From NCBI RefSeq assembly GCF_000799735.1, contig NZ_JUHH01000001.1:1240001-1304000 (forward strand): a DNA stretch of 64,000 nt, given 5' to 3'. The notes below the pieces were generated by a model. That model was given only the letters and a program-made list of their open reading frames with translations. It made no database searches and had not been told where the DNA came from. A program made the position numbers and the translations under genes. Shown piece by piece: positions 36,333 to 62,230 of the stretch (positions are counted from its first letter, which is position 1; every line of letters begins with the position of its first letter). The DNA is from Methylotenera sp. G11. Lineage in GTDB: Bacteria > Pseudomonadota > Gammaproteobacteria > Burkholderiales > Methylophilaceae.

Positions 36333-39300
36333 TTAAATCGGAGCACATGATATGAGAATCTGCTGAGAGAAATATCTATCCATTTGCGACCTTGTCACTT
36401 TAATAGAGGCGTTACCTAAAGTGATGGCAGCCTTATCAGATTGGTTAAATTGAGCATCGACGCGCGCTCTCAATTCCTGCAATGACGAGTCTGGCCTGAA
36501 TGATTGTGTTACAACTCTATAACCATTCACTTCCAATAATTGAGTAAGCGTTTCAACAGAGAAAAAACGAATATGGGTGACATCAAACAAGCCGGCATTG
36601 GCGTAGTTAAAGCTACCCGACACTACACCATTGATATATTGAAGGTTCTGAACATTAGGTACTGAAATGACAACTCTGCCTTGAGCCGCAACCAGCCTTT
36701 TCAGCTTTTGCATGAATTTCCATGGGTTATATAAATGCTCAACAACATCTGACAGAATAATCAAATCAAATAATGCGCCCTGATATGTATCTACAAATTC
36801 TTCTGCTGTTTGATGTATAAACTGGAAGTTCTGATAGTTTTCACATGAATCATCTGCAACAATATCTACGCCGTATAAATCACTTTTATCTATAGCGTAT
36901 CCTAATGACTTGGGAAGTTCGATCAAATTCGAGCCGTCCGCACAGCCGATTTCACAAATCCGTCTTGGCTGGCAATCTATTAATTTAAACAAGTCATATC
37001 TAGGTTTAACTTTGTATTGAGCCTGTGCAATAGAAAATTTCTGCCCATAGGCAAAATCTATCTTAAAATTTAATGCCTGGATCTTTTTATGCGATGACCA
37101 TTCGGAATGGACGATTCGGCTGAAAGGTTTTTGAGGGTCGATCTGAGTAATTTCCAGCCCCAAAGATTCCACTTTTTTAGAAACAGCGATTTCTGACGCA
37201 ATGCATTCTTCATAATTTGCACCGATAGGGAAGCCATTGATAGTATCCAACGTGCTCCTTTTTAATGCCCAGATTAAACTGCGTAAGTGCTTTGCATCTT
37301 TTCCTGGATAAATAGCGTTGCGCTGCATGAAAGATAAATAAACTTCTGCACGCGCTTTGATTTCAGCACTCACTGGATTGCTGGATGGATCATTACCTTG
37401 CAAATCGCTCCAGCTGCGGGTCCAGTGCTGGTTGATACTTTCGCCGACTAGTCCAACCTGTGCATTCTCCAAGGCTTTAAGATAGTCATGCACCCAGCCA
37501 TCCTGGATAATCCGGCACTCGTCCTGCAAGAAAATAAAACTATCTACGTCTTTAAACTGGCGCCAACCATAATCCCATGCACCGATATTCATTCCTTGAT
37601 TTTGTCTGTATAGAATATTGGTTTTATATTTTCCAGAAGAAACTTCTATCAAACGCTGCTCTTGTTGATTAACGACTATGGTGATTTCAATGAGATGTCC
37701 GGGCTCATGAGCGTCAATTGATGCGATTAATGCCAGAAGATCATCAATGTCACGTCCGTCATAATAAGAAATGATTACCATGCACTTCTGCTGACTTAAT
37801 GACCCAGTTGGGTCACTCAAAACAACATTACTCCACAACCGCCCTATCATTTCTTTAGAGTAATGCTGAGCGATATGTTGCTGTCCCAGTCTTATCCTCG
37901 ACACGACCTCTTCTGGGTTTGCTACTGCCCAACGCACCCCCTCAATTAAATCATCACCCACCCATGCGCTATTGGCAAACGATGCGTATGAAGGCAGGTT
38001 TCCTGCCACTACAAAACGGCCACTCCATAATGTTTCCAATAATCGGTTTGAGCTTTTGGCTTTCTTGATATCATTATCAAGTGTAGGAATGACGACCAAG
38101 TCGCAGTTCGCTAAAGCCTGTGCAGTGGCCGCTACACTCCAAGGGGTATATTCAACCTGCAACCCCTCAGGTATGAATTTCTGTATGTCGCTTATATCGT
38201 TCGTCAATGCAGTGACAATGTTTAACGCGAGTGGCTGTTGTTGAGCATATTCAGCTAGCTGAGGTAACCACTTGATAAGCGTATCAATATTGACCACATG
38301 ACCAAACCAAAGCAGTTTAAGTGCTTTATTGGGACTGAATTTAATTGTCCCTTTAGAAAAATCTACAGGGTCGGCGATGATTGCATCGACATTTTTCCCG
38401 GTTGCCAGAATAGCTTCTGCCATTGCAGGGGTTGATGCCGTAACCTTATCCGCGATTGCAAGCAGCGCATGCTGTAATGGACCGCGTTGGGGATGCGTCA
38501 AGAAATTGTCGCAAAAATCGGCAATCACTGTCGCTCCGCGATTTTTAGCATCCTGCGCCAGTTTGACTGAGAAATCCGTAAATACTTTTGATATGATGAC
38601 AGTATCACCTTTTTGCGGAACGTTACTTCCCCATCCCCCCATCGCTTGGGCATAAGCTTCATTTACGAACTCACTGTTCCAGCCCGATTTTTCAAGTTCC
38701 AATGCTGGAGCCAGAACCCGATATCTAGCACTGGCCAAAGTTGACGTTTTATTGGTACCTTCGCTTTTAATCGCGCCAGCAGTTAGCCAGATCAGACGTT
38801 TACTTGATATATTGAAATGCGATTGATATGTGGCAACATGGTCACCATCCGCTTTATTGCCGTATGCTGCAACTAAGTCTGACTGTAGTTCATTCAGGGC
38901 ACCTGACCAGTCTTCAGATATATTCTGCCTGTAAACTTTGCTTTCTATGAACCACAAAGATTGATTACCTTGATACCCCCAGCGCCAATCACCTCCCGGA
39001 GTTTGTACTAGCACTTTAGATCCTAATCCCAAGCCTGCACGCAGGTGCATATTTGTGTTGGATACGCCAATGTTCTCATCCAGTAACGACAAAAGTGCAA
39101 GCAAGTCTTCCAAATCATCAGTTAATGCTGCGGCATCGTGAACAGGTGAGTTGAGCCTTTTCTCAAAGCGCGGAAGTTCGTCCAAAACAATATTCCGCTG
39201 CAAAGAAATCCATGTTGCATTGACAACTGAAAGCGTTACTGCAAATGCATTTTCATCTACGGCCTTCGTAAGTTTTCCGAGACTCCTTGCAATATCTTCG

Positions 39301-46561: not shown

Positions 46562-48316
46562 TCACCCGGCAGCCAGGTCCAACAAGCGCTGAACACCGAT
46601 GGGCTCATCCTGCATCATGGGTACGACTGCATATCGTTTTGAATGCACTTTGGAAACCGAGTTAATCTCGACTAATTCATTCAGCGCGCGTTGATGCAGC
46701 AACGCTGAACCGGTACCGGTTGCTGCGACACTGTTATTGATTATCCAGGCCCATGGTTCAATGCCCGCACGACGCAGGTCTGACTGCAGGTTGGCGGCCT
46801 CCAGCACTGGCGTTTTTTCTGCCAGGGTCACAATGAGTATCTTGGTTCGCTTCGGATCCTGCAGCTGCATCATCGGCGTAGTGAAGTGCATATGCGCCTT
46901 CTCCATCTGCCGTACCACCTCACGATGGTAGGCGCCGGTAGCATCCAGCAATAGCAGGGTATGCCCGGTCGGCGCGGTATCCATGACCACGAACTTTCTG
47001 CCAGCTTCACGAATGATGCGCGAAAATGCCTGAAACACTGCGATTTCCTCTGTGCAAGGTGAACGCAGGTCTTCTTCCAGTAGCGCACGGCCTTCTGTAT
47101 CCAGCTGTGCGCCTTTGGTTTCGAGAACGTGATTGCGATAACGCTCGGTTTCTTCATGCGGGTCAATGCGACTGACAGTCAGATTGTCCATCGAGCCATT
47201 GAGAGTATCGGATATATGCGCTGCCGGGTCTGAGGTGGTCAGGTGAACCGGCAGTCCACGACGTGCCAGCTCAACAGCAACCGCCGTTGCCACAGTGGTT
47301 TTACCCACACCACCTTTACCCATGGTCATCACCAAGCCATGGCCATCTGCCGCGATACTATCCACCAGGCTGGATAAGCTGTGCTTAGTCACGTCAACCC
47401 TTGCACCGCTATCCCCGCCGGGTTGATAAGGTGCCTCCGTTAACAGCATGCGCAAGGCATCCAGGCCAACCAGATCAAAGGCTTTGAGTGAAACCTGATC
47501 CTGCGGTAGAGATTTCAATACGGCAGGGATTCCATCCAGTGCCGCCTGTTCTCGCTGGCAAATCGCAGCGGCCAGCGCATCATGCGCTGCCTCCACTTTT
47601 GGCAGGATGCCGTTAATCACAAGATATTGCTGCTGCAGGCCAATACCAGCAAGCTCCTCATGGGTACGAGCCACTTCACACAGGGTAGATTGCTGAGCGC
47701 GTGCAACCAGAATCAATCGGGTACGCTCATTATCGGCAAGTGCCTCCACGGCTGCTTTGTATTGTTCGCGCTGTTTTTCCAGACCGGCTAACGGGCCCAG
47801 ACACGAGGCATCCCCCTTGCCTTGTTCCAGAAAACCGCTCCATGCACCGGGAAGCTGCAATAAGCGGATAGTGTGACCAGTCGGCGCAGTATCAAAGATA
47901 ATATGGTCGTAGCTCTGGGTAATCGGGGAATCAATCAACAGTGTTGTAAACTCATCAAAGGCTGCGATTTCAGTCGTGCAGGCGCCAGACAGCTGTTCTT
48001 CAATGCCGCTGACCACTTCATCAGGAAGCAGGCCACGCACCGGATTCACAATACGGTCGCGATAGCCCTGCGCAGCTGCCTGCGGATCTATTTCAAGCGC
48101 ATCCAGATTCTTTACAGCCGGAACAGGGGTGATGTGATTGCCGATAGTGACGCCAAACACCTGACCGACATTGGATGCCGGATCGGTGCTGACCAGTAGC
48201 ACGCTTTTGCCAGCCTCCGCCAGATAAATGGCGGTTGCACAGGAGATTGAGGTTTTACCTACGCCACCTTTACCTGTAAAGAACAGAAACCGCGGTGGCT
48301 GCTCAAGAAACTGCAT
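46562..48316 (-). CDS. arsA: Arsenite-stimulated ATPase ArsA
   Basis: A 584-residue double ATPase that energises arsenite efflux. Each half has a deviant Walker A: FTGKGGVGKTSISCA near residue 14 and TMGKGGVGKTTVATA near 330. Each half also has the FDTAPTGHT/MDTAPTGHT signature. Cysteines that form the metalloid site lie in LSGACTTEIAAFDE and RSPCTEEIAVF. The ATG at 48316 has AAGGAG six bases upstream and gives the usual start MQFLEQPPRFLFFTGKGG. The longer frame from 48373 would lack this. It normally partners ArsB; partnership with ACR3 is seen in many operons that also have arsD. Confidence 0.94.
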   Translation of the reverse strand: MQFLEQPPRFLFFTGKGGVGKTSISCATAIYLAEAGKSVLLVSTDPASNVGQVFGVTIGNHITPVPAVKNLDALEIDPQAAAQGYRDRIVNPVRGLLPDEVVSGIEEQLSGACTTEIAAFDEFTTLLIDSPITQSYDHIIFDTAPTGHTIRLLQLPGAWSGFLEQGKGDASCLGPLAGLEKQREQYKAAVEALADNERTRLILVARAQQSTLCEVARTHEELAGIGLQQQYLVINGILPKVEAAHDALAAAICQREQAALDGIPAVLKSLPQDQVSLKAFDLVGLDALRMLLTEAPYQPGGDSGARVDVTKHSLSSLVDSIAADGHGLVMTMGKGGVGKTTVATAVAVELARRGLPVHLTTSDPAAHISDTLNGSMDNLTVSRIDPHEETERYRNHVLETKGAQLDTEGRALLEEDLRSPCTEEIAVFQAFSRIIREAGRKFVVMDTAPTGHTLLLLDATGAYHREVVRQMEKAHMHFTTPMMQLQDPKRTKILIVTLAEKTPVLEAANLQSDLRRAGIEPWAWIINNSVAATGTGSALLHQRALNELVEINSVSKVHSKRYAVVPMMQDEPIGVQRLLDLAAG

Positions 48317-48353
48317 TGATTCGCTCCTTGCTATCCAATGATTGTGGCTGACG

Positions 48354-48716
48354 TTAGCAGCATTTACCGCCACTGCAGCAACTGGTGACTGGCTGAATCT
48401 CTATGGCAGCGGTCAGTCCAGACCAGCGTGCCAGCTCGGTGCGGTTAGGATAACGTCCAGCCAAAGCAAATTCACCATCTACCAAAGTCAGCGGCAATGC
48501 TTCCTGGCCAGAGCGCTCAAGGAAATCTCGCACTACTTTATTGCTGGCAAATTCCATGGGTTGCTGTGCCAGATTGAAACGCTCGATTTGTGCGCCAGTT
48601 TTCTTCGCCCAGTCTGCGTCCGCAGAGAAGTTAACCAACTGCTGATCCACCTCTGTCCCGCATACGCCTGTACTGCAGCACAACGCTGGGTCATATATTT
48701 GTATAGTCTTGGTCAT
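48354..48716 (-). CDS. arsD: Arsenic metallochaperone ArsD
   Basis: A 120-residue protein that carries As(III) to ArsA and acts as a weak repressor. It has a thioredoxin-like fold with the vicinal cysteine pair and third cysteine in YDPALCCSTGVCG, plus two further pairs at the end (SCCSGGKCC). The second ATG (48716) is preferred: AAGGAG is six bases upstream. It lies between arsC and arsA, as usual. Confidence 0.93.
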   Translation of the reverse strand: MTKTIQIYDPALCCSTGVCGTEVDQQLVNFSADADWAKKTGAQIERFNLAQQPMEFASNKVVRDFLERSGQEALPLTLVDGEFALAGRYPNRTELARWSGLTAAIEIQPVTSCCSGGKCC

Positions 48717-48727
48717 CATTTTCTCCT

Positions 48728-49207
48728 TCAAGCGATAGCGTCCGCGATGTGATCCATTTCTGCTTTTAAAGCAGTCTTGTCGTGTTTAAGCTGCTCCAGC
48801 GGCAGCCCAAAGAACGCCTCGATGCGTCTGCGCAGAATGCTGTAGGCTTTCACAAAAGCCGCATTTATTTCTTCATCCGTTCCCGTGACATGCGCAGGAT
48901 CCTCAACGCCCCAATGTGTTCTGATTACCGAACCAAGGTAGGCTGGACATGTTTCTCCGGCCGCACTGCCGCATACGGTAATCACAATATCGGGGGTGGT
49001 TGGCAGGTTCTCCCAGGATTTACTGCGGTAGCCTTCTGTTGCAATGCCTTCCTTTGCCAGCAATGCCAGTGAACGCGGATGCACATAACCTGCGGGTTTG
49101 CTGCCTGCGCTCATCGCATGCCAGCCGGCAGGTGCCAGATGGTTGAATGTGGCCTCCCCTAAAATGGATCGGCAGGAATTGCCTGTACACAAAAACAATA
49201 CATTCAT
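48728..49207 (-). CDS. arsC: Arsenate reductase, thioredoxin-type (LMW phosphatase fold)
   Basis: A 159-residue enzyme that reduces As(V) to As(III). It has the phosphatase-type loop LCTGNSCRS (Cys7, Arg13). Further cysteines lie in ITVCGSAAGETCPAYLG (residues about 77-93), and HWGVEDPAHVTGTDEE contains the DP acid motif. This is the low-molecular-weight phosphatase class, which draws electrons from thioredoxin or mycothiol-like systems. It starts one base after arsR ends. Confidence 0.93.
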   Translation of the reverse strand: MNVLFLCTGNSCRSILGEATFNHLAPAGWHAMSAGSKPAGYVHPRSLALLAKEGIATEGYRSKSWENLPTTPDIVITVCGSAAGETCPAYLGSVIRTHWGVEDPAHVTGTDEEINAAFVKAYSILRRRIEAFFGLPLEQLKHDKTALKAEMDHIADAIA

Positions 49208-49208
49208 G

Positions 49209-49580
49209 CTATTCGGCCTTTTTAGAGGATTTTATTACGGGGATCAAGCCAGGTGAGCATTGGGATTGATTCAGTATATCTGCACATTGATCCGGATTGC
49301 CTGAGCAGCATTCTTCCGTAAGGTATGCAATTGTTTCAAGCATTAAAGAAAAGTTTGCCCGGTAGCGCTGGAACCTGCCTTCCTGCTGCACGGTGACCAT
49401 GCCCGCGTGCGTCATTGCCTTGAGATGGAAGGAGAGGTTGGTATTGGGGATACCCAGGCCAGAGGCAATCTCTCCGGCCACCATGCCATCCAAGCCTTTT
49501 TTTACCAACAGCCTGAATACGTCCAGGCGCACTTCCGATGAAAGTGATTCGAAAATAGCAGTAGCAGTTTTTTTGTCCAT
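49209..49580 (-). CDS. arsR: ArsR-family arsenic repressor
   Basis: A 123-residue winged-helix repressor. The helix-turn-helix is in GEIASGLGIPNTNLSFHLKA, followed by the wing VTVQQEGRFQRYRAN. Cysteines TEECCSGNPDQC near residues 93-102 form a C-terminal As(III) site, as in the Acidithiobacillus-type ArsR, instead of the ELCVCDL site of plasmid R773. It heads the ars operon and is expected to repress it until arsenite binds. 49581-49851 upstream is AT-rich with no gene. Confidence 0.93.
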   Translation of the reverse strand: MDKKTATAIFESLSSEVRLDVFRLLVKKGLDGMVAGEIASGLGIPNTNLSFHLKAMTHAGMVTVQQEGRFQRYRANFSLMLETIAYLTEECCSGNPDQCADILNQSQCSPGLIPVIKSSKKAE

Positions 49581-51768: not shown

Positions 51769-52635
51769 TTACTTTTTCACAATCGGAATACCGCGAAATG
51801 TTGCGCCACGGCGCAGATCCAGCTTCATGGATAGCGCCCCGCTACCACACTTGTCCAGACACGCGCCGCAGCGGGTACAGTCGCTGTCAGTCACCGTAAC
51901 AGCTTTTTTGGCAACCAAAGGCGCAAGTACATGAGGCTCAGGACATACCTTGATACAGTCGGAACAGCCTGCGCATGCATCAGCTTTGACGGCCATGACA
52001 CGCAGCCTGCCATAATGCCCTAGCCATCTGTAAAAAGCCCCCACGGGGCAAAGATGCCCGCACCAGCCACGTCGCGTCACGAGGAAATCAAACAGGAACA
52101 ATGCTGCAAGGAATGTGAGTCCGGCGGCGGAGGTCCACATGATCTCACGTTGCAGCAGCGTGATCGGGTTGATGTTCTCCCAGGCCAGCGTGCCGCTGAT
52201 CGCAGACAGTACCAGCGCCATGACCAGCAGTACAGTCCTCAGCTCTCGCGACATGGTCAGATTGCCCTTTATTTTTAATTTCTGCCGCAGCCAATACGCA
52301 GCATCGGTCAGCATATTGATGGGGCAAACCCAGCCGCAATAGATGCGACCGCCGAAAAATGCATAAAAGCCTGCCACGATTGCAGCACCGATCAGTACTG
52401 TCTTTGCGAACGGCGCGCCGGCCAGCAGGGATTGCAACATCACGAACGGGTCGGTCAGCGGCACATTCCAGAACCAGACGCTGGAAGAGAGGTTTCCCGC
52501 AGCAATGCGCCCGATTTCCGGCAGATCAACGATGAACGCCAGTACAATCAGAATCTGCACGCTGCGCCGCATCAGCAGCCAGCGCCGTCTTTTCAGTGCA
52601 GAAACCGTGCGGAGAAAGCGATTCGCCGCTACCAT
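51769..52635 (-). CDS. mauN: MauN, ferredoxin-type membrane protein
   Basis: A 288-residue NapH-like protein. The start ATG at 52635 lies within the last codons of mauM (ATGGTAG overlap) and gives the usual length; the open frame reaches further up inside mauM. Membrane helices carry GRIYCGWVCPINMLTD and GWCGHLCPVGAFY motifs, and two 4Fe-4S clusters lie at the end (CAGCSDCIKVCPEP, CTRCGACLDKCG). It is the last gene of the mau operon. Together with MauM it probably feeds electrons into maturation of the cofactor; it is not essential in all species. Confidence 0.92.
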   Translation of the reverse strand: MVAANRFLRTVSALKRRRWLLMRRSVQILIVLAFIVDLPEIGRIAAGNLSSSVWFWNVPLTDPFVMLQSLLAGAPFAKTVLIGAAIVAGFYAFFGGRIYCGWVCPINMLTDAAYWLRQKLKIKGNLTMSRELRTVLLVMALVLSAISGTLAWENINPITLLQREIMWTSAAGLTFLAALFLFDFLVTRRGWCGHLCPVGAFYRWLGHYGRLRVMAVKADACAGCSDCIKVCPEPHVLAPLVAKKAVTVTDSDCTRCGACLDKCGSGALSMKLDLRRGATFRGIPIVKK

Positions 52636-53333
52636 ACCATGCGTCCTACGGCGTTCGTACCTGACAGCCCCAAACCGAGCTCTCGCGGCAATACACGTAT
52701 CGTCGCCTCGGACAGCACGCAATGTTTTTCACAGGTACCGCATCCGGTACATTTATCTGGATTCACCGTCGGAATCTGCAGCAAACCGCGCTCATTCTGT
52801 ATCGGTTTCAGTGCAATCGCCTCACCGCGGATCGGGCACACACGGACGCATACACTACAGGTCAACCCCTTGTAGTTAAGGCAGTTTTCATGATCCACCA
52901 GTACCGCCACGCCCATATCCGCCTTACGTATATCTGTCAGCAGCGGATCTAGCGCACCGGTGGGGCAGGCTTTCACGCAGGGGATATCCTTGCACATGCG
53001 ACAAGGGTTCTGACGTGCCACAAAGAATGGCGTGCCCAATGGCGCCGGATCTGCCCAGCTGGCTAGTTTCAGAATGTCGTAAGGACAGTCCTTGACACAC
53101 AAACCACAGCGGATGCAGGTCGAATCAAACGCTTTTTCCGGCAAGGCGCCGGGTGGCCTGAGTATTTTTGCGGCACGCGCCGGCCGTGAAAAAATCGCCG
53201 CCTGCGCCACCACTGAGCCAAGTACAGCGACCCCCATATGACGGAATACACGTTTGAAGGCTTTTCTGCGTGCCGGCTCCTCTGAACCGGGTTTTACAGC
53301 GGCTGACTCTTTTGCGTTTGTATGCTTATGCAT
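52629..53333 (-). CDS. mauM: MauM, ferredoxin-type protein
   Basis: A 234-residue NapG-like protein with a twin-arginine type leader region (ARRKAFKRVFRHMGVAVLG) and four 4Fe-4S binding sets: CIRCGLCVKDCP, CRMCKDIPCVKACP, CSVCVRVCP and CTGCGTCEKHCV. It overlaps mauN by seven bases. Presumed periplasmic, working with membrane protein MauN in electron transfer linked to methylamine dehydrogenase assembly. Confidence 0.92.
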   Translation of the reverse strand: MHKHTNAKESAAVKPGSEEPARRKAFKRVFRHMGVAVLGSVVAQAAIFSRPARAAKILRPPGALPEKAFDSTCIRCGLCVKDCPYDILKLASWADPAPLGTPFFVARQNPCRMCKDIPCVKACPTGALDPLLTDIRKADMGVAVLVDHENCLNYKGLTCSVCVRVCPIRGEAIALKPIQNERGLLQIPTVNPDKCTGCGTCEKHCVLSEATIRVLPRELGLGLSGTNAVGRMVW

Positions 53334-53388
53334 GACTTACTCCATACTTGAACTTGATATCACCGTTGCCCGCAAAAACCGCCAGTCA

Positions 53389-53838
53389 TCAGTCCTGTAT
53401 CAGCATTTTTGCGCGTATCACCGGATGTATCCAGCAACGGAATACATATTCGCCCTCGGCATCATCCGGCACAGTCCAGCTCACAAGATCACCAGGAATT
53501 TGAATTTCAAGATTAACAACAGTACCGTCGGGATAAGTGACATAAAGTGCATGAGTAATATCTGAACGATTTTCTATCTCGATGCGGTCTTTACGTTTTG
53601 GCACGAATGACCATGGCTCAAGCTCGTGGTGAGACAGCGTCATCTTGTGTAACTGTGCGCCTGGAGCTAGCGGTATGGTCACGCCTTGCGCAGCCCTGGA
53701 AGGATAAATTCTCTGCGATGCCTCATGTGCAGCCGGATCATGCCCGGCTGCACTGTAAGCAGGCGAAGACACCACAAGCAGCAACATGGCAGCTACATGT
53801 GCGAGCGCACAGCCTGATAGACTTGGAATCGGCTTCAT
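53389..53838 (-). CDS. mauL: MauL, methylamine utilisation accessory protein
   Basis: A 149-residue exported protein. The start at ATG 53838 (MKPIPSLSGCALAHVAAMLL) is preferred because AAGGA lies about seven bases upstream. A GTG at 53874 overlapping the mauG stop is an alternative. The mature domain resembles cupredoxins (YVTYPDGTVVNLEIQIPGDL; GEYVFRCWIHPVIRAKMLI), with one Cys and one His in the place of copper ligands. It is required in some species for MADH formation; its exact task is unknown. Confidence 0.88.
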   Translation of the reverse strand: MKPIPSLSGCALAHVAAMLLLVVSSPAYSAAGHDPAAHEASQRIYPSRAAQGVTIPLAPGAQLHKMTLSHHELEPWSFVPKRKDRIEIENRSDITHALYVTYPDGTVVNLEIQIPGDLVSWTVPDDAEGEYVFRCWIHPVIRAKMLIQD

Positions 53839-53870
53839 CGCAACATCCTTCATTTTTTCTATATCCATAT

Positions 53871-54896
53871 TCACTCCGGCATCCGCGGATAATCCACTTT
53901 CAATGCACCGCCATCCAGCGTCTTGATAAACTCCACCAGGGTCTGCCTTTCTTCGTCCGTAAGTTCAAACGGTTTCATTTCCAGCGAACGGCTTTTGCGC
54001 GCAATGCCGCCTTTCTCGTAGTGCCTGACGACTTCGTCAAGGCTAAGCATGGCACCATCGTGCATATATGGGCCATTAATCGGCAAATCACGCAGCGATG
54101 GTGTCTTGAATGCATACTGCATGAGTGTTACCTGTGGCGGCACTTTCGCACCTCTGCCAATGTCTTCGGTACGCAATCCGATATCATGGAAGCTGTCGTC
54201 GGTGAAACGCCAGGATTTATGGCAGGCTACACACTTCGCTTTATTTTCAAACAGCGCGAAGCCACGCTTGGCAGATGCGCTGATAGCGCCTTCGTCGCCT
54301 GCTATCCAGCGGTCAAAGGGCGAAATATTGGAAACCAATGTGCGCTGAAAGCTAGCCAGCGCTTGCGTAATACGCTTCTGATCAATATCGGCATTGCCAA
54401 ATGCCTCTGCGAACAGAGTGCGATACCCTTGAATATTTTGCAGACGCGCAATCACGCCTGGCATATCAAAATTCATTTCATGCGGCGTCGTGATTGGCAG
54501 GACAGCCTGCGCCTCCAGCGAGCCAGCTCGTCCGTCCCACATCAGCGCTGTCAGCCATGCACTATTCAGGACAGTGGGCGTACGGCGTGCATTTGGCACA
54601 TTCTCAGAGCCTAGGGGAATTATCCTACCATCGCTCCAGCGATGATCTGGCGAGTGACAGGTGGCGCAGGACATTTTGCCATCGCGCGATAATCGCGCAT
54701 CAAAAAACAGGGTTTTCCCTAATGTCACCTTCTCAGCAGTCAATGGATTGTAAGACGGCGACAGGATGCCGTCCGGACGGAGATACGCATCTTTCGATGC
54801 AGTATCGCCCGCCCGGACGACACCTGCCGCTGTCAGCATTGACAGCGTAAGAATCAGGCCCATGAAGCGAAGTGCGGGCCTAGCTCTCATTTCCAT
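53871..54896 (-). CDS. mauG: MauG, diheme enzyme for TTQ cofactor formation
   Basis: A 341-residue periplasmic enzyme related to diheme cytochrome c peroxidases. It completes the tryptophan tryptophylquinone cofactor of MauA, using a high-valent diheme iron state. It has a signal peptide ([19 protein letters not shown]) and two heme sites ([14 protein letters not shown] and [10 protein letters not shown]). The conserved [18 protein letters not shown] segment supplies the tyrosine region of the six-coordinate heme. The start at ATG 54896 directly follows the mauA stop; an upstream in-frame ATG would overlap mauA. Confidence 0.95.
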
Positions 54897-54897
54897 C

Positions 54898-55470
54898 TTA
54901 GCTAGCCTTACCAACAACTGGTGAAATGGTGCAGTGGTATGTCATATCATCATTCTCAGCACCGAAACACCAAACGATGTCGTTGTTGAACTCTGGACGA
55001 TACACTGGCAATTCACCGTGTGTATTGAAGCAGCCGCAACGAGTGGCAGTCTGTTTACCACAGCAGTCACGATAAGCAATCAGATAGGTCTGACCATCGC
55101 CTGGGTTGTAGCAGCTGGCGACCCATGAGCTTGGTGACAGCGTTGAACCTGGTGGGCATGATGTCAAACTACCGCCATTACAGTCACAAATCTGACCGTC
55201 GATAGAGCAATGACGCCAGTAGTCGCAAGATTGCGGGTCTTTGTCCTGCGGTTTCCAGCCACCATCTTTTGTCATACTGTTAACACTAGCAGCCTGAGCT
55301 TCACCACCAAGAGCCAGACGAGCACGACGGTCTACTGGCAGCAAAGGCAACAGTGCTGAACCAGCTAAAAACATACCTACTTTACCGATAAAGCTACGGC
55401 GACCAGTGTAATTGGCGGTAGTACGTGCCAGTTTTTCAATGGTTGAGTCAAATCGTTTGTTTTCTTTCAT
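54898..55470 (-). CDS. mauA: Methylamine dehydrogenase small (beta) subunit MauA
   Basis: A 190-residue catalytic subunit carrying the TTQ cofactor. It oxidises methylamine to formaldehyde and ammonia in the periplasm. The long leader contains [20 protein letters not shown], a twin-arginine signal, with cleavage expected near residue 60. TTQ is made from Trp116 (PSSWVASC) and Trp167 (DIVWCFGA), which equal Trp57 and Trp108 of the mature Paracoccus protein. Asp135 (YRDCCG) matches the catalytic Asp76. The twelve or so cysteines of the mature part form the six disulfides known for this subunit. Confidence 0.98.
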
Positions 55471-55511
55471 TTTGTTTTCCTTATCCTAAAATTTCTAACT
55501 TTTGGACTAAA

Positions 55512-56144
55512 TTAATGAACACCTTTGTTTTGGTCTGCTTCTATCAACGTGGTCGTGCTGTGCTTCATGAAGTCCTGTAAAGTTGAGTGACCTTCACGAA
55601 CTGTTTCAAACAAGCTTTCAACATGCTCACGCGTATTGCACAGGCCTTTGCCAAGAATCACACCATCTGCATCGAGCAACACGCCATAAGGAACTTTAGA
55701 AATCTGATAACGCATACCGATTTCAGCTGAAACAACATAGCGCTCATTTTGCAGCGGATGGTTACGCAGGAACTCAAGATGTTCAGCGCGTGTACCATCA
55801 CTGATCAGCACTACATCAGTACCTTCTGCAGCAGCTACTGAACGAATAATCGGCAGCAACTTAGCGCAGATAGGGCAGCTTGGACCAGTAAACATCAACA
55901 GGCTTGGACGATTTGGAGCAAGCGCACGACCTACAGTAATCGGCGCACCGTCAAACGTCGTCAGACTAAACACCGGTGAGCGTTCCCCGATTTCAGGACC
56001 GTTGTCGAGCAACATCGCGCCCAGTGGAGCTGATCGCTCATGTAACAGACCGATTTGTCGAATAACGCCAAGCATCAATGCTGCCAGGCTTAAGAATGCG
56101 CACCACAGCAACACATTCGATGCAATAATAAATCCAGTATTCAT
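55512..56144 (-). CDS. mauD: MauD, disulfide-handling protein for MauA
   Basis: A 210-residue protein with an N-terminal membrane anchor (NVLLWCAFLSLAALMLGV) and a periplasmic thioredoxin-like domain. The active site is in FTGPSCPICAKLLP (Cys-Pro-Ile-Cys). It is known to be needed, with MauE, for stable MauA, probably by making or sorting its many disulfides. It lies 41 bases before mauA and 21 bases after mauE. Confidence 0.95.
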   Translation of the reverse strand: MNTGFIIASNVLLWCAFLSLAALMLGVIRQIGLLHERSAPLGAMLLDNGPEIGERSPVFSLTTFDGAPITVGRALAPNRPSLLMFTGPSCPICAKLLPIIRSVAAAEGTDVVLISDGTRAEHLEFLRNHPLQNERYVVSAEIGMRYQISKVPYGVLLDADGVILGKGLCNTREHVESLFETVREGHSTLQDFMKHSTTTLIEADQNKGVH

Positions 56145-56165
56145 TTCTATTCTCCTATATTTAAA

Positions 56166-56714
56166 CTAACTTTTTTTGGCACGTGAGTCGTGTAATCCTA
56201 CGACTAGATCTGCCGCAAGATAAATCATCGCGAACATCGCAGCAGCCGCTGCACCCATCAGTACAGATTCAATTGTCAATGCAGACATATTGATCGATAC
56301 ATTAGCGGTGTAAAGACTCACTGCGGCGAGTGCAAGGGCACGCATTACGTGAAACATGCCGATACGACTCACACTTGTTGGACGACGTACGCAACCACAG
56401 TCAATGTGGGTGCGGCCACGTCCGACATTAATCGCGAGCGCCATTGCAAACATCATGAAAAGGCCTGCCGCTACCCACGCAGCCACCTCGCGCGCTGGCG
56501 GCACCAGCAATGCTATGGCGCTGCCAAGCTCCAACCAGGGTAGAAGCTTCGCGAACGGCGCGACCATAAAGGAAGGAAGCAGCCGGTAGTTGGCAACCAC
56601 ACCCTGAAACTCATCTGCATTGCGGATTTTTGGAATAGCAGCCGCAACCAGAACAAGTGCCAGGAAAAGTGAGGCAAACACCGGGACAATCGGGTCATTA
56701 ATAAGCCAGTTCAT
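56166..56714 (-). CDS. mauE: MauE, membrane protein for MauA maturation
   Basis: A 182-residue membrane protein with about five helices, DoxX-like. It contains the two cysteines in [13 protein letters not shown], which may exchange electrons with MauD. It is required for MauA stability in known methylamine users. It begins seven bases after mauB. Confidence 0.94.
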
Positions 56715-56721
56715 GTTTTAC

Positions 56722-57954
56722 TCACTTATCCATCGTAATGATTATTTGAGGCGCTTTACCAATCTCATCCATTGATGCCAATTGCTTGCCACTAACAGCA
56801 TCAAATGTATACACTGATTTGTCCTCAATTGAAGCTGTGATCAATGTTGGATTTTTGTCTTGGGTCACAGCGATAGAATCAATGTTATGCTTCAAATCGA
56901 TACGACGCAGACGTTTGCCAGTTGTAGCATCAGCAACCACTACAAAGCGGCTAGCCGTTTTATGTGTCCATTTGGCACGCTTATCCGAGAGCAGATAGAT
57001 TTCGTTACGTTCCTTGTGCATAGCAACTGGTTGCCAGCCACCTGGAGCCCACTTTTCCTTCTTCTCTTTATCGCTGAATATCTCGATTGGTTTCAGGAAT
57101 TCAGCCCCTGATTCAGACAATTTAGCCTGGAAGATTTTACCTTCGTAGGTTGGCCAAACTAAACGGCCAGCCGAGTTTGAGTAGTACGGATTGTTGTGCA
57201 GATACTCGTTCTCAGCGTGGAATACTTTGGTATTCTTCTGCTTGGTATTGCCTTGATCATCATAACTTACCTGCAACATTGAACCATCACGACAGTGCAT
57301 GAAGAAATTTTGTTTGGCAGTTGGGAAAATGTGATAGCAATCAGGGATTTCCATCGTTTTCACATACTTTTTCTGTTGCAAATCAACCAAACCAACGCCT
57401 GATGATGGCGAGAATTGCTGAACCAGCATGTGTTTGTCATCAGTACTGAAAGCAGCAAAACGCTCAATCAAACCAGTCAGAAAACGGATTTCAGGAATAT
57501 CAACATCCACAGCTGGCTCAAGGGTTTGAGCATCATGCAACCTCACGTAGTCATCTCGCTTACCATGCGCAATACGATCGTAAGTTGTGTTAGCAATACC
57601 TACATATTTGCCTGTAGAACTTGCCATCACATGCGGCAGCTTGCCACCATCGATAATGCCGTGCAGTTGCAACTTGTTGTCATTGGCACCCATCACAAAA
57701 GTTTGAGAAGTTACGTTGAAGTGACCAGGATCAACGACGTAAAAACGCTTAATGTCACTTGGCGGCGCTTTTGCAACTGACAAATTGTCAATTTTTACGC
57801 TACCAACTGTGGCAAGTTGTTTCGGCACTGTTTTTTGAGCTTCAGCAAACGCAGGTTGCGCTGCTACCAACAAAGCGGCGATTGCCAGCTTGCCTGCAAG
57901 GCGAGTTTTCAACTCGCGCGGCCCGTTTGTTGTTTGATTATTTAAAGTAATCAT
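56722..57954 (-). CDS. mauB: Methylamine dehydrogenase large (alpha) subunit MauB
   Basis: A 410-residue periplasmic beta-propeller subunit that holds two MauA chains in the heterotetramer. ATG at 57954 has GGAG six bases upstream. The signal peptide ends near AQPAFAEA. Propeller blades include FYVVDPGHFNVTSQTFVMGA, FPTAKQNFFMHCRDGSMLQV and EIYLLSDKRAKWTHKTASRF. Length agrees with other MauB proteins. Confidence 0.97.
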   Translation of the reverse strand: MITLNNQTTNGPRELKTRLAGKLAIAALLVAAQPAFAEAQKTVPKQLATVGSVKIDNLSVAKAPPSDIKRFYVVDPGHFNVTSQTFVMGANDNKLQLHGIIDGGKLPHVMASSTGKYVGIANTTYDRIAHGKRDDYVRLHDAQTLEPAVDVDIPEIRFLTGLIERFAAFSTDDKHMLVQQFSPSSGVGLVDLQQKKYVKTMEIPDCYHIFPTAKQNFFMHCRDGSMLQVSYDDQGNTKQKNTKVFHAENEYLHNNPYYSNSAGRLVWPTYEGKIFQAKLSESGAEFLKPIEIFSDKEKKEKWAPGGWQPVAMHKERNEIYLLSDKRAKWTHKTASRFVVVADATTGKRLRRIDLKHNIDSIAVTQDKNPTLITASIEDKSVYTFDAVSGKQLASMDEIGKAPQIIITMDK

Positions 57955-58015
57955 ATTTTCTCCAGACATTATTAATAATTTTATAAATGCACTTCAGAAT
58001 CGAAACCACCCGCCA

Positions 58016-58873
58016 TTACAGAACCAACAGCGTCAAAGCTGCAGCACCGATAGAAAGCAGGAGGAATCCATCCACTTCAACAGCGCGCTCTTGCCAACGG
58101 GCTAACCAGGCTTGTGCAGACTGATTGCTAACTGGCAGGAAATTAATCGCGACTGGTAAGCAGCGACCGATGTTGAAGATGGCAAATATGGTGATGGCAG
58201 TGGTTACGTCGCCGCTGAACAGGGCTGCGCCGGTAACGATGTAAAGCATCGGCGTCTGCACATAAGTAAGATAGTTCATCCCCAATGCAAAACCGTACAA
58301 TAGACCAATCACCCAGGAACGGAAGCGGTAACGTGCATCATGAGGAACCTGTGCACGACGCTGCGGATATGGCATCTTCAAGAAGCCGAACTGATGCAGG
58401 CCATAGCCGATGCCTACTACCGACAGACCCGCTACCATATAATTGAAAGGCAGTTCATCAAACAAGAGCCAGCCCACCACACCCAGCGCACTCCCCAGAA
58501 CCAGCGCACCCAAGGCATAGCCCAGCACATGCGTCAGGAAGGTAGGCGTCCAGCGGACAACCGATCCAAATGAATAGCGTCCGGCCGGCCTCAGCAGACT
58601 CAGGCTGGAATAGCCGCACGGCGACCAGGTTGAAAGAAAACCGCCGACAAGCGCAAGCACTACAAACATTGCTGTTAACGCATCAGCTGTTGCCACCCTT
58701 GAATCAAGCGCAACGCCGCCCGCAACGCCTACAGCAACAGCCAGCGTCATTACCGCAAAGCGTACCGCTCCTGACCGCGGCTCAGCAAAACTGATTGCAT
58801 CAGGCACGCATGCGACGGCCGCACTGCCTTGGGATGACTGGTGATACGCTCCAGACCTTACACCCATTTTCAT
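58016..58873 (-). CDS. mauF: MauF, membrane protein, first gene of the mau operon
   Basis: A 285-residue membrane protein with about seven helices, related to the DsbD/CcdA group (AMFVVLALVGGFLSTWSPCG contains a conserved Cys; VLGYALGALVLGSALG). It is needed for MADH biosynthesis in known systems. ATG at 58873 has AGGAGG seven bases upstream. It is transcribed from the operator-bearing promoter about 57 bases upstream. Confidence 0.94.
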   Translation of the reverse strand: MKMGVRSGAYHQSSQGSAAVACVPDAISFAEPRSGAVRFAVMTLAVAVGVAGGVALDSRVATADALTAMFVVLALVGGFLSTWSPCGYSSLSLLRPAGRYSFGSVVRWTPTFLTHVLGYALGALVLGSALGVVGWLLFDELPFNYMVAGLSVVGIGYGLHQFGFLKMPYPQRRAQVPHDARYRFRSWVIGLLYGFALGMNYLTYVQTPMLYIVTGAALFSGDVTTAITIFAIFNIGRCLPVAINFLPVSNQSAQAWLARWQERAVEVDGFLLLSIGAAALTLLVL

Positions 58874-58929: not shown

Positions 58930-59014
58930 AATATAGTTACAATTTTGTTACTTCCGTAGCAAAAATCGGCATACCCCCGAACACGGCACCACCGGTGTTG
59001 CCGATTTTTGCTAC
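58930..59014 (-). promoter_or_regulatory. mau operon promoter with inverted operator pair
   Basis: The minus strand carries TGCCGATTTTTGCTAC (58971 down to 58956), then exactly 20 bases, then TATATT (58935 down to 58930) as -10. A perfect 16-base inverted partner lies at 58999-59014 on the plus strand, with ACACGGCACC between them. No good -35 is present, as expected for an activator-dependent promoter. Start near 58923 gives a 50-base leader before mauF. Confidence 0.75.
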
Positions 59015-59070
59015 CGCCCTTCCCACCACCCGGAAAATTAGGGCGCCTCCAGCTTTCACAGGCTGAAAAT

Positions 59071-59245
59071 AAAAAAAGCCGCACCCTTTCGGGTGCGGCT
59101 CAACCTTAGGCGTATTACCGTTGGAGATGCCTAAATCAATTACACTTAAAAAACTGAGGAAGTTCTGCGCTCACTCACTGCCTGTCACTTAAATCGAAAG
59201 TGATCCCGATTACCATGCCAAACAAGAATGTGCGTAAAAGTGAGA
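59071..59245 (-). ncRNA. Candidate small RNA, co-regulated with mau
   Basis: Between the second operator promoter (-10 at 59252-59257) and the strong terminator at 59077-59100 lies about 175 bases with no credible gene (the longest frame is 13 codons without a ribosome binding site). A transcript would start near 59245 and end in the U-run at 59071-59077. Its own terminator would stop it from reaching mauF. It could also be a decayed gene or an old promoter copy. Confidence 0.4.
59077..59100 (-). terminator. Strong intrinsic terminator between the two mau-type promoters
   Basis: AGCCGCACCC pairs with GGGTGCGGCT around TTTC. On the minus strand it is followed by seven T (A-run 59071-59077). 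It points toward mauF but lies upstream of the mauF promoter, so it ends a separate transcript and insulates the operon. Confidence 0.9.
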
Positions 59246-59251
59246 GGGCGA

Positions 59252-59334
59252 ACTATAGCAAGCAAGATATGGCGGCCGTAGCAATAATCGGCATGCATTC
59301 ACGCACGGCACCCGCTTTTGCCGATTACTGCTAA
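59252..59334 (-). promoter_or_regulatory. Second mau-type promoter with inverted operator pair
   Basis: The minus strand carries TGCCGATTATTGCTAC (59293 down to 59278), 20 bases, then TATAGT (59257 down to 59252). An inverted partner TGCCGATTACTGCTAA lies at 59319-59334. The interval contains GCACGGCACCC, sharing CACGGCACC with the first pair. Geometry is the same as at mauF. Confidence 0.65.
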
Positions 59335-59448
59335 CCACCTCAAACCAACAGCTCCGGAAACTCTACATAACGTCATATATCTAAAGTATATATAGGCATT
59401 TATCCGAAAATAACATTATTAATCATATGGTTATTCTCTGGCGGCTGT

Positions 59449-59490
59449 TGCCGATTTTTGCTATTCCCATCAAAAAATTTGGACTATAGT
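59449..59490 (+). promoter_or_regulatory. Operator and promoter of the AraC-type gene
   Basis: TGCCGATTTTTGCTAT at 59449-59464, then exactly 20 bases, then TATAGT at 59485-59490 on the plus strand. It directs transcription toward the regulator gene and suggests autoregulation. Unlike the other two sites here it has no inverted partner. Confidence 0.65.
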
Positions 59491-59616: not shown

Positions 59617-59667
59617 ATGCCGGATATCAACTCCACGGAAAGTCAGGCGGAAAGAGAAATATCTTGA
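59617..59667 (+). CDS. 16-codon leader frame overlapping the regulator start
   Basis: ATG at 59617 opens MPDINSTESQAEREIS and its TGA overlaps the TTG start of the AraC-type gene (TTGA). The arrangement would permit translational coupling. There is no strong ribosome binding site before the ATG, so it may equally be unused. Confidence 0.3.
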   Translation: MPDINSTESQAEREIS

Positions 59668-60680
59668 ATTTTCAAATAGAATTTTTAGATGCCGGCCCAT
59701 TAGGAAGCCCTAAGGTACATTTGTCCCGGCGCACCACCACTGATGTTTTGGAACAGGCAGATGCACTCCCATTCTGGTCGCAGGATTACACTCAGTTAAG
59801 CAAGGGCACATTTTCCGGCGCCCTGAATAGCGCAACTTTTCAGGGTGTGCAGATTTTTCACGAAAAAATGAATCGTGCCGTAGATCAGATTGCGTTTGCG
59901 CCGACCGATGCCTATGTCATCGGGTTACCGACAACCATCGATGGCGACGCCACATGGGGATTGATGCCTGTCAAAGCGAACTCCGTGATAACGCTGGACA
60001 AAAATACCGAACTCGTTTTCCGCACCTCCAACCAGTCCGAAATCACAGCAGCCGTTATTTCAGCGCAGCGCCTGGAGGATTATGCATCACAAGTCGAGTG
60101 GGTAGATCTGCGTAAAATCATGTCCAATGTAAGACCCGTGGAAACCTTATCCAGCGATATTACGATGCGGCTCCAGACTTCGCTGACAGACGGCATGCAC
60201 TACATTTCAAAATTCTGCGACAGTGCTGATGCGCAGCAGATCTGGCGCAACCTGGAAAGTGATCTGATGGCAACCTGCGTGCAGGCGCTTCTGCAGGCCA
60301 ACAATAGCCCAAGCCAAAACTATGATCATCGTATTCACCGCTATATTGTAAACCGCGTACGTGACCTGACTTTATCAAACTCAGGCTACCCGCTGTCCAT
60401 TGAAGAACTCTGTGTCAGCCTGCGCATCAGCAGGCGCACCCTGAACCATGCATTTATACGCGTACTCGGCATCACCCCGGTGGCTTACATGCGCAATGTG
60501 CGACTGCATCGCATACGTGCAGAACTGCAATCGGCGCCACATCAGGTAAGATACATTGCCAGTGTGGCTGCCAAATGGGGATTCTGGCACATGAGCCTGT
60601 TCTCCCGCTATTATCGGGAATTGTTTGGGGAAACCCCGATCGAGACTCTATCACGCTCACGCGTCGGGGAGCGACACTGA
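59664..60680 (+). CDS. AraC-family transcriptional regulator of the mau region
   Basis: A 338-residue regulator. The N-terminal 220 residues are an unrecognised sensing domain. The C-terminal AraC/XylS DNA-binding domain (about 235-335) has two helix-turn-helix units: LSIEELCVSLRISRRTLNHA and the segment RYIASVAAKWGFWHMSLFSRYYRELFGETP. It starts at TTG, with no ATG in frame. Divergent from mau, with an operator before both units, it is the best candidate for the methylamine activator. It is unrelated to the LysR-type MauR of Paracoccus. Confidence 0.88.
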   Translation: MNFQIEFLDAGPLGSPKVHLSRRTTTDVLEQADALPFWSQDYTQLSKGTFSGALNSATFQGVQIFHEKMNRAVDQIAFAPTDAYVIGLPTTIDGDATWGLMPVKANSVITLDKNTELVFRTSNQSEITAAVISAQRLEDYASQVEWVDLRKIMSNVRPVETLSSDITMRLQTSLTDGMHYISKFCDSADAQQIWRNLESDLMATCVQALLQANNSPSQNYDHRIHRYIVNRVRDLTLSNSGYPLSIEELCVSLRISRRTLNHAFIRVLGITPVAYMRNVRLHRIRAELQSAPHQVRYIASVAAKWGFWHMSLFSRYYRELFGETPIETLSRSRVGERH

Positions 60681-60803: not shown

Positions 60804-61031
60804 ATGGGTTCATTTAGCATCTGGCACTGGCTGATCGTACTGGTCATCGTAGCACTGGTTTTTGGCACTAAAAAACTGCGCAATATTGGCGGTGACGTCG
60901 GCGGGGCGGTAAAGAGTTTCAAGGAAGCGGTCAACGAAGGGAACGCCGCCCCTGCCATTGAACAAAGCGCTTATAGTCATGCGAATGGGCATACGATAGA
61001 AAACGACATTGGACACAAGGCCGGGCGATAG
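60804..61031 (+). CDS. tatA: TatA, twin-arginine translocase subunit
   Basis: A 75-residue protein with the short N-terminal membrane helix ([20 protein letters not shown]), the [20 protein letters not shown] amphipathic helix and the FGTKKLR hinge typical of TatA. AAGAGGTAAA precedes the ATG. First gene of tatABC. The Tat path exports folded proteins; MauA and probably MauM nearby have Tat-type leaders. Confidence 0.95.
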
Positions 61032-61058
61032 GCTCAGCTTTAAGGATAAAACCAAACC

Positions 61059-61469
61059 GTGTTTGATATCGCATTCTCAGAGCTGGTCGTGATCGGCATT
61101 GTAGCCCTGCTTGTCATCGGGCCGGACAAGCTACCCAAGATAGCGCGTACCGCAGGCCACCTGTTTGGCAGGGCGCAACGCTACGTCAACGACGTGAAAT
61201 CCGACATCAACCGCGAATTGCGTTTTGAAGAGTTGCAGAGCCTGCAGGATGAAATACGCCAGAATACGCAGCAACCCGCATCGCCCCAATACAAGGCAGG
61301 CCAGATCATCCGGCATGATATGGAACAAACTGCGCCCAAATACCAGGTAGGCCAGATTATCAGGCATGATCTGGAGCAGAACGATCATGCAGCCGAAGAA
61401 CATCAGCGCCCAACCATGATGGCGGATTACATTGACCCAGCGCCGCTCAAACAGGGCGCAGCCAATTGA
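61059..61469 (+). CDS. tatB: TatB, twin-arginine translocase subunit
   Basis: A 136-residue protein starting at GTG with FDIAFSELVVIGIVALLVIG, PDKLPKIARTAGHLFGRAQ and the long amphipathic helix, as in TatB. The C-terminal part has a near-repeat, YKAGQIIRHDMEQ then YQVGQIIRHDLEQ, which is not usual. AAGGA lies about ten bases before GTG. Its stop overlaps the tatC start (TTGA). Confidence 0.93.
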   Translation: MFDIAFSELVVIGIVALLVIGPDKLPKIARTAGHLFGRAQRYVNDVKSDINRELRFEELQSLQDEIRQNTQQPASPQYKAGQIIRHDMEQTAPKYQVGQIIRHDLEQNDHAAEEHQRPTMMADYIDPAPLKQGAAN

Positions 61470-62230
61470 ACATCGCCGATAACTTTGCCTCGCATCTGAT
61501 CGAGCTGCGGAATCGCCTGTTATATATAGTTGGCGGCTTGCTGCTGATTGTGATTGCACTGTTCCCGTTTGCAAACGATATCTACCATCTGCTTGCCACG
61601 CCACTGCTGGAAAGCCTGCCGGCTGGCGGGCAGATGGTTGCCACTGATGTGACCACCCCTTTCTTTGTGCCAATGAAAGCCGTACTGCTGGCAGCATTCA
61701 TTATTTCCCTACCCCACACCTTGTACCAGATATGGGCTTTTATCGCTCCCGGGCTATATACGCATGAGCGGCGCATCATCTGGCCACTTATTTTCGCAAG
61801 CACCCTACTGTTTTTATGCGGCATGGCCTTTGCCTATTTTCTTGTGTTCCCGGTCATATTCGGTTTCATCACCAGTACCGCGCCGGAAGGCGTGGCGGTA
61901 ATGACCGACATTGGCAATTACCTTGACTTTGCCATGTCGCTGTTCGTCGCATTTGGCCTTGCATTTGAGGTGCCTATCGCAGTGATCCTGCTGGTGGCAA
62001 CAGGAGTGGTAAACGTCGCAGGCTTACGCGAAGCCCGCGCCTACGTCATCGTCGGCGCTTTTGTGCTGGGAGCGATTTTCACGCCGCCGGATATTATCTC
62101 CCAGTTCATGCTGGCTATACCGCTGTGGCTATTATATGAAGCAGGGATTCTGGCAGCGAGCCTGATCCACAGACATCAAGGCGCAAGCGCTTCCGTAGTC
62201 AACAGCCACTTACACACGGCTGATAAATAG
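61466..62230 (+). CDS. tatC: TatC, twin-arginine translocase receptor
   Basis: A 254-residue protein with six membrane helices. It has the signature starts FASHLIELRNRLLYIV, then LYQIWAFIAPGLYTHERR, and ends in FTPPDIISQFMLAIPLWLLY. Conserved Glu in SHLIELRNR binds the twin-arginine signal. It starts at TTG inside the tatB stop codon, so the genes are coupled. A terminator follows. Confidence 0.95.
   Translation: MNIADNFASHLIELRNRLLYIVGGLLLIVIALFPFANDIYHLLATPLLESLPAGGQMVATDVTTPFFVPMKAVLLAAFIISLPHTLYQIWAFIAPGLYTHERRIIWPLIFASTLLFLCGMAFAYFLVFPVIFGFITSTAPEGVAVMTDIGNYLDFAMSLFVAFGLAFEVPIAVILLVATGVVNVAGLREARAYVIVGAFVLGAIFTPPDIISQFMLAIPLWLLYEAGILAASLIHRHQGASASVVNSHLHTADK

Follow-up and report, generated by a model that had tools for sequence, protein, structure and literature searches.

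In Paracoccus denitrificans the mau cluster is reportedly regulated by MauR, a protein of the LysR family and not of the AraC family. EutR is the regulator of ethanolamine use, an amine-related pathway. Its NCBIfam model (NF007522) is the best-scoring named model for the AraC-type protein encoded beside the mau cluster studied here, with 151.1 bits over residues 20-331, which is far below the 319-bit equivalog cut-off. By description, the system can also be likened to TmaR of Ruegeria pomeroyi, which the available text of PMC13390433 presents as an AraC-type activator of a methylated-amine pathway that is induced by a further catabolite of methylamine, binds in the region of its own promoter, and has genes of the trimethylamine and N-methylglutamate pathways under its control. 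XylS, acting at Pm of the TOL plasmid, likewise has 15-bp half-sites, each with a box A (4 bases) separated by 6 bp from a box B, and its sites overlap those of RNA polymerase at Pm, according to the accessible portion of PMC5481539 and a title cited in it. As given there, the XylS half-sites are direct repeats with boxes TGCA and GGTA, whereas the sites reported here carry TGCC and TGCTA and form inverted pairs facing away from each other, in two classes one helical turn apart; the direct-repeat arrangement of Pm is not that of this locus.

For the Methylophilaceae, Beck et al. 2014 noted the same neighbourhood, a mau cluster with an AraC-type gene and tatABC, as conserved; to the available text of that article (PMC4109929), the present analysis adds a binding site, promoter geometry, a porin and a small RNA. 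Among the open-licence papers retrieved by literature searches, titles and abstract openings contained no description of these operators or of this RNA, and no account of how mau is switched on in beta- or gammaproteobacterial methylotrophs.

The window, by which we mean the whole stretch of DNA analysed, comprises 64,000 nucleotides of Methylotenera sp. G11 (G000 in our genome set). Its mau cluster (51769-58873, minus strand) is followed, after a gap of 790 bases, by an AraC-type gene on the plus strand and then by tatA, tatB and tatC (60804-62230). Among the relatives referred to below, G172 is Methylotenera versatilis 7, G117 a Methylotenera MAG, G111 M. oryzisoli La3113 and G058 Methylobacillus rhizosphaerae; G109 is probably M. 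mobilis JLW8 and G055 probably M. flagellatus KT, and genus g15 is presumably Methylophilus. The genes concerned are:

51769..57969, minus strand: mauB, E, D, A, G, L, M and N (PF06433, PF07291, PF02975, PF03150, TIGR00397, TIGR02163; the names mauD and mauL come from position only)
58016..58873, minus strand: mauF, first gene of the mau operon, 67-88% identical to the gene preceding mauB in relatives
59664..60680, plus strand: AraC/XylS-type regulator gene, proposed activator (PF12833, PF00165, orthologs, structure model)
60804..61031, plus strand: tatA
61059..61469, plus strand: tatB
61466..62230, plus strand: tatC, with tatA and tatB possibly on one transcript with the AraC-type gene

For mauF, neither Pfam nor NCBIfam gave a family above cut-off, and we presume its identity from synteny. 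Along the AraC-tat stretch, terminator-like matches were weak and no more numerous than in shuffles. We consider it likely that a methylamine regulon has its control hub in this region, where an AraC/XylS-type class II activator would act through shared operators on mau, tatABC and a small RNA.

Operators and predicted promoters between mauF and the regulator gene

The initial annotation had reported five copies of one 16-mer, three of them 20 bases upstream of TATA-like hexamers, and both claims hold. Copies of TGCCGATTTTTGCTAC with 0-3 mismatches occur five times within 509 bases, all in the mauF-AraC gap (0, 0, 1, 3 and 1 mismatches, in order of position). The whole window contains seven matches at up to 3 mismatches, where shuffled sequence gives 1.0 on average (sd 1.0, maximum 4 in 100 shuffles). 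Three copies end exactly 20 nt before TATATT, TATAGT and TATAGT, and the remaining two, both on the plus strand, have AAATTA and CGGAAA at that position.

58930..58935, minus strand: predicted mauF promoter -10, TATATT, 20 nt from the 16-mer, at the profile peak over 24 loci
58956..58971, minus strand: operator 16-mer proximal to the mauF promoter (TGCCGATTTTTGCTAC), its 20 nt to the -10 conserved in relatives
58999..59014, plus strand: distal site of the mauF pair, facing away, 27-bp spacer
59252..59257, minus strand: predicted small-RNA promoter -10, TATAGT, also TATAGT in G109, G111, G117 and G172
59278..59293, minus strand: operator 16-mer proximal to the small-RNA promoter
59319..59334, plus strand: distal site of the small-RNA pair, 25-bp spacer
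59449..59464, plus strand: operator 16-mer proximal to the promoter of the AraC-type gene
59485..59490, plus strand: predicted -10 of the araC(-tatABC) promoter, TATAGT

The spacers of 27 and 25 bp claimed for the inverted pairs are also real, and CACGGCACC is present in both. In an exact search, CACGGCACC was absent from the araC-mauF gaps of 13 other family loci, with one other copy (L047:2009) outside the gap; because of this absence, its presence in the spacers is probably incidental and not that of a conserved element. A genome-wide search of G000 with the composite pattern returned only the three promoters listed. Three single-mismatch matches come next after the five sites; the one of these that was read by eye, in the window at 38508-38523 (minus strand), has no TATANT 20 nt downstream. 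On the far side of the mau cluster, a small cytochrome c gene (PF00034; 51157-51615, plus strand) lies on the opposite strand, and no 16-mer match was found within 12 kb on that side. The accessible text of PMC4109929 places a cytochrome c likewise at the mau cluster end in M. mobilis. Adjoining the cluster at 46562-49580 are arsenic-resistance-like genes, named by eye from their translations (a double ATPase like ArsA, and ArsD-like, arsenate reductase-like and ArsR-like genes).

A search for sigma-70-type promoters gave no match at any of the three starts, and the last three bases of the 16-mer occupy the position of the -35 hexamer (17-bp spacing). A proximal site that overlaps the -35 position, with no good -35 hexamer, is the layout of class II AraC-family promoters, to which these promoters would belong. 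Because the site covers the place of the missing hexamer, class II activation is suggested: the regulator would bind sites of 15-16 bp (box TGCC, 6 bp, box TGCTA), the promoter-adjacent one ending 20 nt before the -10, and the protein would replace the -35 contact. Upstream of it by 25-27 bp, or by about 36 bp with one turn more, a second site facing away would allow a dimer to grip both on one face of the helix.

This geometry recurs in relatives. In 24 mauF-araC gaps, 82 sites were found at up to 2 mismatches. For the mauF sites (n=19), agreement with TATAAT is greatest 20 nt past the 16-mer, at 4.53 of 6 compared with 0.74-2.63 at 27 other distances; the araC sites (n=23) have a modest peak there (3.43, against up to 2.83 elsewhere), and the other sites (n=40) reach 2.48, the next highest value being 2.05. 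Facing-away pairs, whose sites were picked irrespective of spacing, had spacers of 25 (5 pairs), 26 (7), 27 (1), 33 (1), 34 (1), 35 (2) and 36 bp (11). These 28 spacers, which come from related genomes and are not independent events, fall into two classes, 13 at 25-27 bp and 15 at 33-36 bp, with none between. Two classes one helical turn apart are as expected if a dimer sits on one face of the DNA. The count leaves out L089 (contig end, no mauF), L098 (a paralog), L100, L102, L104 and L105 (distant), L053-L055 (no adjoining mauF), L138 (G063, regulator not next to mauF), and L086, L087, L088 and L093 (same genomes as G172, G117, G058 and G111). Sites with 3 mismatches were uncounted, and five Methylophaga loci therefore stand without a pair in the count, though closer reading shows one.

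The repeats could instead be operators of a repressor, or repeat debris with no regulatory role, and in the window the distal member of each pair, which faces away, does stand without a promoter. Yet the fixed distance to the -10 and the two-class spacing are kept in many genomes, and a site at the place of the -35, where none of the three starts has a sigma-70-type promoter, fits an activator; we regard a repressor or debris as extremely improbable.

Conservation of the regulator, its sites and its neighbours

The protein encoded at 59664-60680 matches two helix-turn-helix families above cut-off (PF12833, 1.4e-20; PF00165, 4.4e-10). In an AlphaFold2 model (mean pLDDT 81, pTM 0.68), helices at 224-335 match the AraC-type DNA-binding domains 3mn2 and 3oio, consistent with the C-terminal double helix-turn-helix of AraC/XylS proteins, and a strand-rich part at 19-133 matches CuxR, ToxT, Rns and cupins, consistent with an N-terminal cupin-like sensing domain. 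The best solved-structure matches, CuxR, ToxT and Rns, have low TM-scores (0.24-0.41 by query length). Fifteen other orthologs are 56-83% identical to the window's regulator, and two stretches of the DNA-reading half, SRRTLNHAF and WGFWHMSLF, do not vary among 16 orthologs.

A search of 187 family genomes with the regulator gave matches in 34 at E <=1e-20, of which 15 stand apart at E <1e-100, the next best being 5.7e-35. Full-length mauB is found in exactly these 15 (Fisher p 2e-22, with relatedness ignored); 8 more genomes exceed the Pfam cut-off for mauB with short matches only. The site, 20 nt and TANNNT occur together in 14 of the 15 mau genomes against 5 of the 172 others, and the reversed pattern in 9 of 187, counts that are likewise not independent events among kin. 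In G058 the strict composite is absent and the mauF site has TTAGAG. In G056 a single mauF site carries TACCAT, and the surroundings of the regulator contain no site at up to 2 mismatches. The araC-proximal sites of G109 and G111 have 1-2 mismatches and TAAAGT at 19 rather than 20 nt, and several Methylophaga araC promoters also seem to be one base off.

A scan of named genomes gave 20 loci, 4 from Methylophilaceae, 11 from Methylophaga (Gammaproteobacteria), 1 from a Thauera MAG and 4 that are distant and have no mau. In the Thauera MAG, as in 9 of the 11 loci from Methylophaga, the regulator (56-63% identity) adjoins mauF and mauB, with sites present; L098 is a paralog with a fragmentary mauF match, and the contig of L089 ends before mauF. 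The tat genes lie on the other side of the regulator in 10 of the 11 Methylophaga loci. Conservation across Methylophaga and the 15 Methylophilaceae genomes that carry mau supports the mau control region with one operator type that had been claimed for the window, and reading the layout as a conserved regulon switch.

That the AraC-type protein itself binds the 16-mers we infer from its exact co-occurrence with mau, its invariant recognition-helix region and the sites at its own promoter. Another regulator might bind them, with the AraC-type gene just one more target; the assignment is made from sequence, and the AraC paralogs of L053-L055 have no operator pair nearby. But the AraC-type gene co-occurs exactly with mau and near-exactly with the sites, the gene neighbourhood and sites are conserved across classes, and the half-site layout resembles that of XylS in the available text of PMC5481539, all of which make a different binder quite unlikely. 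The three paralogs (53-55% identity, in g15 genomes) lie beside a TorF-like porin gene (41-43%), a paralogous regulator-porin unit.

Judged by their sites, members of the regulon would be mau, the regulator and the small RNA. The regulator would activate mauFBEDAGLMN, its own gene together with tatABC, and the RNA of about 175 nt between them, and TatABC may export the MauA subunit. The window, like L040-L043 and L046, has tatABC after the regulator gene, and L040-L043 have 74-79% identical counterparts of tatA in the same place. In L044, L047, L049, L052 and L138, tatABC is apart from the regulator transcript and has a site starting 70-81 nt upstream of tatA, with the poorer hexamers GGATGA, GATGAT or GATTAT at 20 nt. 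Two copies of tatC are present in each of the 4 mau genomes tested, and one in each of 2 mau-less genomes.

The interval from the regulator to mauF contains a porin of the TorF family (TIGR02001) in L044, L045, L047, L048, L049, L050 and L051 (51-100% identity to the L049 porin), and L046 has a weaker relative (27%); L052 and the Methylotenera-type loci L039-L043 gave no match. A site directed at the porin, with TATTGT at 20 nt, is present in L044, L046, L049, L050 and L051. In G173, a TorF-like porin gene about 9 kb from mauF (L136:1396-2562) has its own facing-away operator pair and TATTGT. In G183, a composite operator precedes an ORF of 340 aa with no Pfam match (L137:1470-2548, C97), a possible regulon member.

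A proposed small RNA at the second minus-strand start

The initial annotation had counted a second minus-strand start among the promoters of the mau regulon. Its 16-mer, 20-nt spacing and TATAGT stand, and what changes is the product, which is most likely a small RNA of about 175 nt and not a second mau mRNA. A terminator, overlooked earlier, stands about 150 nt after this promoter and ahead of that of mauF.

59070..59245, minus strand: proposed small RNA, about 175 nt, with a predicted start about 7 nt after the -10 and its end at the terminator U-run
59106..59134, minus strand: hairpin UUAGGC...GCCUAA of the small RNA, with UCUCCAA (59121-59127) as its loop core
59076..59101, minus strand: intrinsic terminator, strong, 11 pairs then a T-run

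The conserved 3' half reads UUUAGGC-A-UCUCCAACG ... GCCUAA, then the terminator. A covariance model finds 7 copies in 5 of the 187 genomes at 79.6-90.1 bits, scores that are high by construction, since the model was built from those copies; 60 genomes have some match at E <=0.01, and of these matches all but the 7 copies are at or below 33.6 bits. Each of the 7 copies lies behind its own site and 20 nt, and the RNA is clear in only 5 of the 15 mau genomes. In both G117 and G172 the complete unit is present twice in tandem, every unit with a site, 20 nt and TATAGT or GATATT; G109 and G111 have what by eye seems a decayed second unit. The fold of the window's RNA has z -4.2. Covariation is weak to modest: 97.1% of cells are paired and three pairs are changed on both sides, all in the terminator, and among 500 shuffles 23 score as high and 58 have as high a pairing percentage. 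G173 may hold a divergent eighth copy, comprising a 3-mismatch site, 20 nt, TATTGT (by eye), a hairpin with a UCUCCA loop and another terminator; its fold z is -4.3, the model gives 17.4 bits (E 0.11) and MAFFT aligns it out of register. A weak match after an AraC-type gene of G055 (15.9 bits, containing AGGCAUCUCCA) was taken as chance.

In 25 relatives' loci the model found no convincing copy (best 26.2 bits), and because of this the porin of the Methylobacillus and g15 loci appears to occupy the place that the small RNA holds in the window's clade. Rfam gave no small-RNA family at gathering score (best, for example, RF02278 at 22.7 against 50 bits), and over six loci only tRNA matches. With its own promoter, an intrinsic terminator and no conserved ORF, the transcript has the sequence features of a trans-acting small RNA, one that is apparently undescribed.

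The same transcript could be read as a leader of the mau mRNA, its terminator being an attenuator or riboswitch that conditionally allows passage into mauF; it is on the same strand as mauF and upstream of it, and its hairpin and terminator are conserved. We think this unlikely, as mauF has its own conserved promoter past the terminator, the first of the tandem units in G117 and G172 is followed by another operator pair and no gene, and Rfam had no match at threshold. A small peptide as the product is very unlikely. ORFs of 35-36 aa do cross the loop in G109 and G111, with shorter ones in G172b, G117a and G117b, and a frame xLGISN is common to several copies. Against this, G000, G172a and G173 have no loop-covering ORF of at least 9 aa, the 5' halves vary in length, the sole substituted base in TTAGGC.TCTCC is a first codon position of the xLGISN frame, and one copy has a 1-nt insertion just after it.

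xoxF leaders as candidate targets

The small RNA, as proposed, would end at the intrinsic terminator and expose the loop UCUCCAA, which could base-pair with Shine-Dalgarno sequences, an anti-Shine-Dalgarno that could block translation of other genes. With methylamine or a product of it present, mau and the RNA would rise together, and the RNA would most likely lower translation of one or more other mRNAs. No pairing of more than 6 nt was found between the RNA and any of 13 leaders (mau genes, araC, tatB, tatC, cytochrome).

The loop complements UUGGAGA, which is Shine-Dalgarno-like, and xoxF leaders of both classes match it; the leaders of xoxF, a lanthanide methanol dehydrogenase, are a weak lead as targets, the control comparisons being weak or negative. 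TTGGAGA-N4-9-ATG occurs at 18 sites in G000 and 21 in G173, the reversed pattern at 6 and 10, and the genes in both TTGGAGA lists, named by eye, are xoxF, rplN, frr and an ankyrin-like gene. As background we used 371 gene starts from a 400-kb sample and the window, with starts set by our own rule and one xoxF included; the xoxF set had 27 rows, and L202, which gave no start, was dropped. Seven contiguous Watson-Crick pairs, as in class A leaders, are equalled in the loop by 4 of 371 starts, by 6 with three stem bases included and by 15-27 with wobble. Class B xoxF has 10 contiguous pairs with wobble and stem bases (0 of 371) and 8 in the loop (4 of 371); without wobble it has only 4, equalled by 220-241 of 371.

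Duplex energy distinguished no target among the 371 starts. That of xoxF is unremarkable, being equalled or bettered by 23 of 371 for class B and 69-88 for class A, or by 73 and 171-212 when every start near the 5' end is counted. The xoxF leaders are closely similar in the mau-less G110, G115 and G164, and a genome's own RNA pairs with them no better than another genome's RNA. The window's genome has two near-identical xoxF copies (99.8%; L182, L193) far apart, with different leaders upstream of the ribosome-binding site.

For M. mobilis JLW8, the available text of PMC3728764 gives mau as methylamine-induced and contains no statement that xoxF is lower with methylamine than with methanol; neither 'ncRNA' nor 'intergenic' occurs in its main text as available. 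It is doubtful, though conceivable, that the RNA is a substrate-choice switch in which, on methylamine, UCUCCAA would pair with the xoxF ribosome-binding sites (UUGGAGA, UUGGGGAUG) and shut down methanol oxidation as long as mau is on.

What the locus offers is a precise operator, a likely regulator and a putative regulon with a porin and a second Tat exporter among its members, which occurs as a unit in two bacterial classes. If real, the small RNA within it would be a testable post-transcriptional layer in C1-substrate choice.
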